In this document: positions 14,877 to 42,590 of the stretch, one piece after another
How the letters are laid out: each line of letters opens with the position of its first letter
How positions within the stretch are numbered: the first letter of the stretch is position 1
From: Candidatus Cloacimonadota bacterium
GTDB lineage: Bacteria; Cloacimonadota; Cloacimonadia; Cloacimonadales; Cloacimonadaceae
Reading direction: 5' to 3'
Assembly: GCA_012516855.1 (NCBI GenBank)
Contig: JAAYWB010000058.1
Coordinates: 1-64,000, forward strand
Length of the DNA: 64,000 bases
Notes under the pieces: generated by a model
The model's input: only the letters and a program-made list of their open reading frames with translations
The model's database searches: none
Told to the model about the DNA's origin: nothing
Position numbers and translations under genes: made by a program

Positions 14877-16520
14877 TTAAGTCGACACGGAGTTATGATC
14901 TCGGGCCGGAGTGTTGGCAAGCTCCACCTTTCGGGTGGCAAGCCTGTTAATGAAGGCGCGATCGTGGGAAACAAAGACGACAGCCCCACTGAAGTTTTTC
15001 AGGGATTCCTCCAGCATTTCGCGGCTGCGGATATCCAGGTGGTTGGTGGGCTCATCCAGCAGCAGGACATTGTATTCGCCCAGAAGCAACATGAGTAGTT
15101 GCAACTTGGCCCGTTCGCCCCAAGAGAGGCTGCCCGTCCGGGCAAAGGCCAGGTCTGTCTTCAGGCCGATGCAGCCCATGAGAGTGCGTATCTGGCTTTC
15201 CTCCTTGCCAGAGGTTTTCAGGAAATCCAGCACCACAGCCTGGGGGTCCAGCTTGCTGAGGTCCTGTTCATAATACCCGATCCGCAGGCGGTTGGCGCGG
15301 GAAATCGTTCCCTCGCAAGGCTCCAGAGAACCCAGTAGAAGGCGCAAAAGGGTGGTCTTGCCGCTGCCGTTGGGACCGGCAAGCCAGAGCTTTTCCGCGC
15401 CATAGAGGTGGAGGTAGAAATTGCGGAATATCCAGTTTTCCTGATAGCGAAAGCCCATCCCAGCCACGCTGATCAGCTCCCTGTCGCCCACCTGGACCTC
15501 TTCGAAAGCAAGGTGGCGAAGCTTGTCCTGATGCGGCTTTTCCACTGGATAACGTTCAGTGAGCATTTTGATGCGGTTTTCGATGTGCCGGGCCTGCTGC
15601 ATTTGGGTGCGGGCTGGGTTGGAGATCATTTCAAAAACGTAGCCGCCGCCCTCGCCACGGGTTTCCTTCTGAAAGGACGAGGCCCAAGCCCGCCTTTTCC
15701 GGCTGGCGTCACGCAACTGGCGCAAAAGGCGCTGACGCTCACGGTATTGCACCATTTGGTGGTCCTTAAGCTGCTGTCTGTCACGCACGAAGCTCTGGTA
15801 GTTGCCCGCGCGCAGTTCCATCTTTCCGGCCTCCAGTTCGGCTATTTTGGTGGCGGTGCGGTCGATGAAAACCCGGTCGTGGGATACATAGAGGACAGCA
15901 CCGCCGTAATCCAGCATCCAGTCCTCGAACCAGAGCAGTTGTTCGGAATCCAGATGGTTGGTGGGTTCGTCCAGGATGAGGATGTCGGGTTTTTCCAGGA
16001 GCAGGGCCGCCAGTTGGAGACGGGTGGATTCGCCGCCGGAAAGGGTTGCGCAAGGCCGTTCCGCCAGCATCAGCAAATCCATCCCGAGGAGGATGGCATG
16101 GACCTCTTTTTCCCATTCCGCCGTGTTCTGATCGTTGTATTCCTGCCAGAGGGAAGCCAGTTCCAGTCCGGCTGAGGAAGAGAGATTCTCTGTGGAAGTG
16201 AGAGATTCGATCCGGGTGAGCAATTCAAATTGCCGGGGCCTAACCCGCAGGAGGAAATCACGGACGCTGAGGGGCGCGGAGACGCGGATGTCCTGGGGAA
16301 GATAAGATATTGCGGGGCGGGAGCTTGGATAGCTGATACTACCTTGGGTGGGGGATAATTCGCCTAGAATTATCCGCAGAAGGGTGGTCTTGCCGCAACC
16401 GTTTTTGCCAATCAGGGCGATCTTTTCGCCAGCGGCGACCACCAGGCTAACGCCCGTGAGGATGGGCTGATACTGGTCCGGGTAAGTGTAGTGGATGTTT
16501 TTGAGCTGGATAAACTGCAT
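14877..16520 (-). CDS. ABC-F family ATPase, ribosome-acting, possible antibiotic-resistance type
   Basis: 547 residues, two ABC domains on one chain and no membrane segment, as in ABC-F proteins that bind the ribosomal E-site. Walker A motifs are GKNGCGKT (38-45) and GPNGSGKT (382-389), signatures are LSGGES (160-165) and LSWGER (465-470), and both Walker B regions read LDEPTNHLD (183-191, 488-496). The linker of about 240-330 is rich in Arg, Lys and Gln, like the P-site tRNA-interaction motif. ABC-F members either help translation (EttA, Uup) or protect ribosomes from antibiotics (Lsa, Vga, Msr, VmlR). A leader-peptide uORF and hairpin over its ribosome binding site favour the inducible resistance group, but the drug cannot be told from sequence. 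Confidence 0.88.
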   Translation of the reverse strand: MQFIQLKNIHYTYPDQYQPILTGVSLVVAAGEKIALIGKNGCGKTTLLRIILGELSPTQGSISYPSSRPAISYLPQDIRVSAPLSVRDFLLRVRPRQFELLTRIESLTSTENLSSSAGLELASLWQEYNDQNTAEWEKEVHAILLGMDLLMLAERPCATLSGGESTRLQLAALLLEKPDILILDEPTNHLDSEQLLWFEDWMLDYGGAVLYVSHDRVFIDRTATKIAELEAGKMELRAGNYQSFVRDRQQLKDHQMVQYRERQRLLRQLRDASRKRRAWASSFQKETRGEGGGYVFEMISNPARTQMQQARHIENRIKMLTERYPVEKPHQDKLRHLAFEEVQVGDRELISVAGMGFRYQENWIFRNFYLHLYGAEKLWLAGPNGSGKTTLLRLLLGSLEPCEGTISRANRLRIGYYEQDLSKLDPQAVVLDFLKTSGKEESQIRTLMGCIGLKTDLAFARTGSLSWGERAKLQLLMLLLGEYNVLLLDEPTNHLDIRSREMLEESLKNFSGAVVFVSHDRAFINRLATRKVELANTPARDHNSVST

Positions 16521-16526
16521 GGTTTT

Positions 16527-16617
16527 CTCCTGTAATCTGGTTTTGGGATGGGCAGCAACAGCTCGATGGGGATTTGTGAAAAAGGGGTGTAATCACAACG
16601 CGAGAGCTGTTACAGGA
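16527..16617 (-). promoter_or_regulatory. Translational attenuator of the ABC-F gene
   Basis: In the mRNA, TCCTGTAACAGCTC (16617-16604) follows the uORF stop codon directly. Its AACAGCTC pairs perfectly with GAGCTGTT (16564-16557), and its TCCTGTAA pairs perfectly with TTACAGGA (16534-16527), which contains most of the ABC-F Shine-Dalgarno (ACAGGAG). Both pairings fit one long hairpin with a bulge. A ribosome stalled on the uORF would cover TCCTGTAA and free the ribosome binding site. Confidence 0.65.
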
Positions 16618-16635
16618 TCAACTCTTCTTGCGCAT
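16618..16635 (-). CDS. Leader peptide uORF MRKKS
   Basis: A five-codon frame, ATG CGC AAG AAG AGT TGA, with an almost ideal Shine-Dalgarno (AAGGAGGTAA) six bases upstream. It lies 97 bases before the ABC-F start and about 25 bases after the predicted transcription start. Such a strong ribosome binding site on so short a frame is what drug-inducible leaders of erm, cat and ABC-F genes look like. Stalling is inferred. Confidence 0.6.
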   Translation of the reverse strand: MRKKS

Positions 16636-16666
16636 CGCGATTACCTCCTTTGATTTTATGGATGCC

Positions 16667-16694
16667 ATTATCCTCAGCCGCGAATCGCCGTCAA
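16667..16694 (-). promoter_or_regulatory. Promoter of the ABC-F leader transcript
   Basis: Minus strand: TTGACG at 16694-16689, a 16-base spacer, GATAAT at 16672-16667. Transcription should begin near 16660, leaving a leader of about 140 bases before the ABC-F start. Confidence 0.65.
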
Positions 16695-42175: not shown

Positions 42176-42590
42176 CCCATGGGAAAACCAGATGTCCGCT
42201 GCATCCTTAGCGGGTGCAGAGGAAAGTCCGGACACCACAGGGCGGGATACTTCCTAACGGGAAGCCGCAGCAATGCGGAGCAGCTCCACAGAAACAAACC
42301 GCCCGGCGCGCCCTCCTTTTATTGGTTGCCGTTGAGAGACCGCGGCTTTTTTGTGCCGGGCAAGGGTGAAATGGTGGTGTAAGAGACCACCGTAAGCCTT
42401 GGTGACAGGGCTTGACGGGAATGCCTTATCCGGTGCAATGCCAAATAGGGAAGCCAGGAAGCGCGGCCCGCGCGGTTACGGCTTCCGGGTAGGCAGCTTG
42501 AACCCTTTCGTGAGAAAGGGTCCAGAGGAATGGACATCAGCCAGCGCGTGAGCGCTGGCCACAGAATCCGGCTTACCGTTCTCCCGTGGG
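42176..42590 (+). ncRNA. rnpB: RNase P RNA (class A)
   Basis: The catalytic RNA of RNase P, which matures tRNA 5' ends. Universal elements are plain: GAGGAAAGTCCGGACACC near 42219, AGGGTGAAATGGTG near 42363, GTAAGAGACCACCG near 42379, and ACAGAATCCGGCTTA near 42561. P1 is set by CCCATGGGA (42176-42184) pairing with TCCCGTGGG (42582-42590) with one G-U, and a run of six T follows at once, giving the terminator. About 415 bases fits the A-type. P3 and the specificity domain look complete. Confidence 0.97.

Follow-up and report, generated by a model that had tools for sequence, protein, structure and literature searches.

In attenuators of the ermC type, two hairpins make up the ground state and an alternative helix releases the resistance gene's start; ErmCL depends on a peptide that arrests the ribosome in the presence of drug within a leader of 19 codons. 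Related switches are found upstream of ABC-F genes in Gram-positive bacteria. The cplR leader of Clostridioides difficile carries a uORF encoding MRI and an intrinsic terminator, in whose stem the Shine-Dalgarno (SD) sequence is located as well (Obana et al. 2023, PMC10201436), and stalling occurs at or near the start codon by pleuromutilins or lincosamides. In the vmlR leader of Bacillus subtilis, the uORF encodes MIN, with the natural variants MDN, MDK, and MRK (Takada et al. 2022, PMC9226507); an alternative helix competes with an SD-sequestering hairpin, and control is largely by transcription attenuation with RNA polymerase pausing. Start-codon stalls caused by tetracycline and retapamulin in the toiL-topAI leader of E. 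coli open a downstream start (Baniulyte and Wade 2025, PMC12121999), and this leader, which controls a toxin-antitoxin operon, reads several positions and is coupled to termination by Rho.

Here, we analyzed an ABC-F leader from the phylum Cloacimonadota, located on the minus strand of a 64,000-nucleotide stretch of DNA (GCA_012516855.1, contig JAAYWB010000058.1) that is referred to as a whole as the window. A promoter-like site, TTGACG-16-GATAAT (16667..16694; 10 of 12 matches, transcription start putative), precedes a five-codon uORF, ATG CGC AAG AAG AGT TGA, which encodes MRKKS (16618..16635; ATG at 16635, TGA ending at 16618) and is equipped with the SD AAGGAGG (16644..16650). After a spacer of 97 nt, this is followed by the ABC-F gene (14877..16520; ATG at 16520, stop at 14877, 547 aa) with its own SD AGGAG (16527..16531). 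The first-pass annotation of this DNA had described an MRKKS uORF with a strong SD behind a promoter and before the ABC-F gene, and our analysis corroborates this arrangement, which is conserved in 14 of 15 orthologous loci. A short uORF with an SD upstream of an ARE-type ABC-F gene is shared with the vmlR/cplR/vga class, while the leader intrinsic terminator of vmlR and cplR was not found. These two are the nearest known systems; with cplR, the leader shares the very short Met-Arg uORF before an ABC-F gene, the 5' hairpin hiding the uORF, and the presumed translational attenuation. Unlike cplR, the Cloacimonadota leader lacks a conserved terminator and has its early codons sequestered, and the sequences are unrelated.

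The encoded protein contains two ABC domains and a long interdomain linker (ARD), as expected of an ARE ABC-F protein, and reaches 423.6 bits against the NCBIfam model NF000355 (ribosomal-protection-like; cut-off 380). Its linker aligns with that of VmlR2 (8buu), an antibiotic-resistance ABC-F protein with a long linker; with Uup and YbiT, the linker alignment contains gaps. We consider the protein ARE-like and ribosomal-protection-like, with a probable role in resistance; a search for a close characterized homolog found none. Among 125 genomes of the phylum, 16 carry orthologs (full-length identity 49-89%, with one truncated copy in addition), which makes the gene an accessory one. Their gene neighborhoods mostly differ between genera and, since the flanking genes mostly change, promoter, leader, and gene appear to be kept as a unit. 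A search for plasmid carriage of the gene returned only Listeria and Enterococcus genes of 32-37% identity. In one ortholog (L008, G035:C40:7431-9038), the ABC-F frame contains one TAG and one TAA behind an intact leader; this gene looks broken or mis-assembled.

Leaders were compared among the 15 orthologs with readable upstream DNA (49-89% protein identity). Fourteen of them, from different genera, possess a uORF with an AGGAG(G) SD 111-125 nt upstream of the ABC-F gene, retaining the SD, the start codon, an in-frame stop, and the spacing from the start to the downstream pairing segment 2 described below. In each of the 14 leaders, TTGAC precedes the uORF start by 55-61 nt. The encoded peptides, namely MRKKS, MRRKS, MRKQS, MHKQN, MRKQK, MRNQQ, MHKLS, MRQQTEVQ, MRQQD, MHNQL, MRTQQ, MINSKMNA (GTG start), MINSEMNA, and MFIVIHN, differ from each other. 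A role of MRKKS as a specific leader peptide is not supported, in view of variants such as MHKQN, MRQQTEVQ, MINSKMNA, and MFIVIHN. Unlike in ermC-type leaders, no stalling peptide is conserved and the uORFs span only 5-8 codons; tolerated peptide variants are rather known from vmlR, which shares the uORF inside the first hairpin and the start-codon stalling proposed below. The fifteenth leader (L010, G021:C1, upstream of 2155971, minus strand) is devoid of the uORF, its SD, and segment 2 but keeps segments 4 and 5. This leader represents a natural loss of the sensor half, and its gene is predicted to be either locked off or otherwise controlled.

Folding of the window leader (z = -4.67) predicts helices between five segments. 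Segment 1 (16631..16651), comprising the uORF SD and start region, pairs in the ground state with segment 3 (16581..16602), and this helix 1·3 closes the uORF start. Segment 4, GAGCTGTTGCTGC (16552..16564), has two possible partners. In the OFF state it pairs with segment 5 (16503..16518), which covers ABC-F codons 1-6 from the G of the ATG through CAG TTT ATC CAG CTC; in this predicted helix 4·5, GAGCUGUUGCUGC is bound to these codons and the ABC-F SD lies in the apical loop. In the ON state, it pairs with segment 2, GTAACAGCTC (16604..16613), the 5' arm of the anti-sequestor, which is located directly after the uORF and begins to pair at +23, counted from the start of the uORF; in this fold the ABC-F start is freed. 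Helix 2·4 excludes helix 4·5 because both use segment 4, and excludes helix 1·3 because the two cross. The leader thus has the mutually exclusive helices of ermC-type systems, with one of them sequestering the main start, as well as, according to folding, the first hairpin around the uORF and the competing derepressing helix of the vmlR/cplR/vga class. The same three helices are found in all 14 leaders. Against shuffled sequences, helix 2·4 reaches p<=0.01 and helix 4·5 p<=0.027 in 14 of 14 leaders, and helix 1·3 p<0.05 in eight leaders including the window (not significant in the other six), although the leaders are related and the per-leader tests are therefore not independent. Measured against synonymous recodings of the ABC-F start, helix 4·5 falls below 0.05 in only seven of 14 leaders, with all values <0.12. 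In four leaders (L005, L006, L031, and L032), an extra C-rich stretch is bound to the SD within the 4·5 loop; no such pairing occurs in the window.

Covariation was counted from alignment A2 and per sequence, the MAFFT alignment A1 shifting segment 4 of L001 and L002 by three columns. Within nine close relatives, helix 2·4 is paired in 107 of 108 cells, and eight of its 12 pairs vary, exclusively by one-sided wobble. Because the changes are one-sided, the tool-counted covariation of this helix in these nine does not exceed its shuffle control; such wobble would be expected for a strand fitting two partners. Two-sided changes in helix 2·4 appear among the distant members L011, L033, and L013, with the outer pairs replaced in the former two (GCAT...ATGC) and two inner pairs in the latter. 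The changes extend into the gene: Phe3 is replaced by Ala (TTY to GCA) in L010, L011, and L033, and segment 4 of L011 and L033 carries the matching ATGCTTGC, while in L013 a Q5H exchange and TTG for Leu6 are matched by CTCAGTTGT in segment 4. These matched changes inside a protein-coding arm are the most telling evidence among the compensatory changes. Codon usage agrees with a constraint on this arm. Synonymous identity of ABC-F codons 2-6 amounts to 0.67 vs 0.42 for the rest of the gene, ranking first of 483 windows along it. Gln within these codons is CAG in 28 of 28 cases, compared with a CAG:CAA ratio of 230:230 elsewhere in the gene, and Ile4 is encoded by ATA in 12 of 15 orthologs vs 121 of 573 elsewhere. 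This synonymous constraint points to an mRNA structure acting in translation.

The position of segment 2 is fixed relative to the start of the uORF rather than to its end. Its first pair lies at +21 to +23 from the start codon in all 14 leaders, whereas the uORF stop varies from +16 to +27 and is located at or inside segment 2 in L008, L011, L013, and L033. When a ribosome is trapped on a start codon, its edge maps to +16 to +18 (PMC12121999; PMC9226507), so that segment 2 would begin just past the edge of a start-codon ribosome. We modeled a ribosome by masking -15 to +15 around each P-site codon prior to folding. The mean probability of helix 2·4 was 0.66, 0.74, and 0.53 with the ribosome at codons 1, 2, and 3, and dropped to 0.14 and 0.01 at codons 4 and 5, with helix 4·5 as the mirror image. 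The computed ABC-F start is thus open with a ribosome at codons 1-3 and closed at codons 4-5. The opening of ABC-F codons 1-6, calculated as codon 1 minus codon 5, averaged 0.158 vs -0.008 (sd 0.016) in shuffled-leader sets. For L004 and L005, folding gives a weak and unclear switch, since segment 2 has another partner there. L009 and L011 fold into the ON helix by default without a ribosome, and their OFF state would consequently need translating ribosomes or folding kinetics.

Starting from the observed anatomy and conservation, the compensatory changes, the synonymous constraint, and the computed switch, we read the locus with a probability of roughly 80% as a translational attenuator that senses ribosomes and gauges how far they stand from the start codon of the uORF; the steps that we infer are translation of the uORF, stalling by drug, induction, and resistance. 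Without drug, the 1·3 hairpin would hide the uORF and keep segment 2 away from segment 4, or, alternatively, ribosomes translating and terminating on the five-codon uORF would cover segment 2. In either case, segment 4 would occupy ABC-F codons 1-6 and block initiation. A drug-trapped ribosome at uORF codons 1-3, above all at the start codon, would prevent helix 1·3 while leaving segment 2 free to capture segment 4, and the ABC-F start would be released. The ABC-F protein would then presumably dislodge the drug. By analogy to cplR, vmlR, and vga, the likeliest inducers would be drugs that halt initiation, i.e., pleuromutilins, lincosamides, and streptogramin A, and a stall of the kind seen in cplR may be assumed. 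A start-codon stall on a uORF in a diderm would also be shared with toiL-topAI; unlike the latter, the leader studied here precedes an ABC-F gene instead of a toxin-antitoxin operon with its sensing of several positions and Rho coupling. We lean, with reservation, toward the stricter proposal of a purely translational ruler. Its sole conserved sensor feature would be an anti-sequestor starting one ribosome edge (+21 to +23) from the uORF start; any initiation-trapping drug would induce whatever the peptide, a terminating ribosome would actively repress, and the first six codons of the gene would form a sequestered arm co-evolving with the leader.

A peptide-specific attenuator, in which nascent peptide and drug together arrest the ribosome deeper in the uORF, would be one alternative, and some features speak for it: among the 11 closer members, the second residue is Arg or His and the fourth mostly Gln or Lys, and a stall at codon 3 still yields the ON helix in most folds. 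Arg-X-Lys/Arg (+X+) is the macrolide arrest motif of MRLR-type leaders. We take MRKKS (16618-16635), with its Arg-X-Lys, and MRRKS to fit this motif, which is, however, confined to L001 and L002 and not matched by the other members. The peptide itself is not conserved, as MHKLS, MINSKMNA, and MFIVIHN illustrate, and the C at +4 that fixes Arg or His may be due to helix 1·3. It is the distance from the start to segment 2 that is conserved instead; together with the varying peptide, this points to a stall at codons 1-3, leaving peptide-specific arrest unlikely. We assign a clearly lower probability still to transcription attenuation as in vmlR and cplR, with one of the hairpins being an intrinsic terminator and the uORF setting read-through. 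It could draw on CCCCTTTTT after the 1·3 hairpin in L001 and L002 and on TTTTTT after the 2·4 hairpin in L013, but no U-run is conserved after any helix in the 14 leaders, scanning the gene's strand for terminators gave none, the L013 U-run follows the ON helix and thus the wrong one, and the constraint on codons 2-6 argues for translation. In the region 16581-16602 of the window and in its closest relative L002, CCCCTTTTT is partly paired with AAAGG; it could be a pause site or weak terminator private to these two.

Slightly less credible again is a structured 5' UTR serving mRNA stability or an RNA-binding protein without a regulatory uORF. The strong structure (z -4.67) and the retention of segments 4 and 5 without a uORF in L010 would suit it, yet it is at odds with the SD, the start codon, the stop in frame, and the distance from start to segment 2, all of which are retained in 14 of 15 leaders. 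The first-pass annotation had proposed that TCCTGTAACAGCTC (16617-16604) on TTACAGGA (16534-16527), which holds the ABC-F SD, is the off state, relieved by a stalled ribosome covering TCCTGTAACAGCTC. Both complementarities it named for TCCTGTAACAGCTC, to GAGCTGTT (16564-16557) and to TTACAGGA, are exact, but they are nested, the second enclosing the first, and not alternatives. The 8-bp pairing of TCCTGTAA with TTACAGGA attains p=0.02 in the window, 0.22 in the relative with 89% identity, and 0.47-0.79 across the remaining 12 leaders; being not significant outside the window, it is probably incidental and not a conserved helix sequestering the ribosome binding site. A ribosome over segment 2 is moreover predicted to close the ABC-F start, not to open it, which leaves this version the least probable one. 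The strand that had been taken as the sequestor is thus predicted to be the anti-sequestor freeing the gene, with segment 4 (16564-16552) on codons 1-6 as the conserved sequestor. What holds of the attenuation layout is a uORF that looks translated and, behind it, a switchable helix that controls initiation of the ABC-F gene, as opposed to the proposed partner at the ribosome binding site. Two of the observations on which that proposal had been made to depend, a uORF in homologs (14 of 15) and covariation in relatives (the compensatory changes), were both made.

A covariance model (R1) built from nine relatives, with the window left out, recovers the window leader at E=2.6e-16, and among the 125 genomes of the phylum it scores strongly only at this ABC-F gene. 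Two further matches of 25.9 and 21.2 bits (L136 and L141) coincide with unrelated ORFs or the starts of genes and probably arose by chance. At 80 ABC-F loci of other phyla, R1 gave no clear match (E>=3.5), no Rfam family matched the leader at gathering score, and our literature search on such leaders in Cloacimonadota found nothing relevant. The leader RNA family appears to be undescribed so far, and the bacterial phylum itself has been little studied. In the window as a whole, Rfam matches nothing but an RNase P RNA of bacterial class A (42180-42590). A non-exhaustive scan of more distant ABC-F loci for a uORF (SD of at least five contiguous bases) plus helix yielded only L015 (G043:C129), weakly supported. 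There, an MKLKSK uORF at -110 precedes an ABC-F gene with 33% identity, and a hairpin resembling that of segments 2 and 4 comes after the uORF (p=0.01). This uORF lies directly downstream of an apparent tRNA gene, and the locus belongs to a different ABC-F subfamily within the same order; it is a possible second family of the same design.

Switches of this type have been described in Gram-positive bacteria, and the leader studied here departs from cplR and vmlR in that no terminator is conserved and the early coding sequence is sequestered; vmlR likewise has competing helices, yet is governed largely at the level of transcription, and no terminator was found in the Cloacimonadota leader. If true, our reading would carry the control of ABC-F genes by start-codon stalling beyond Gram-positives, into a largely uncultured phylum of diderms and in a purely translational form, and would provide a resistance-type gene with a regulatory constraint on its first codons. 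A reporter would make it testable which natural ribosome inhibitors these anaerobes meet. In addition, the spacing rule of an anti-sequestor just past the initiating ribosome could reveal peptide-independent attenuators that searches for peptide conservation have missed.
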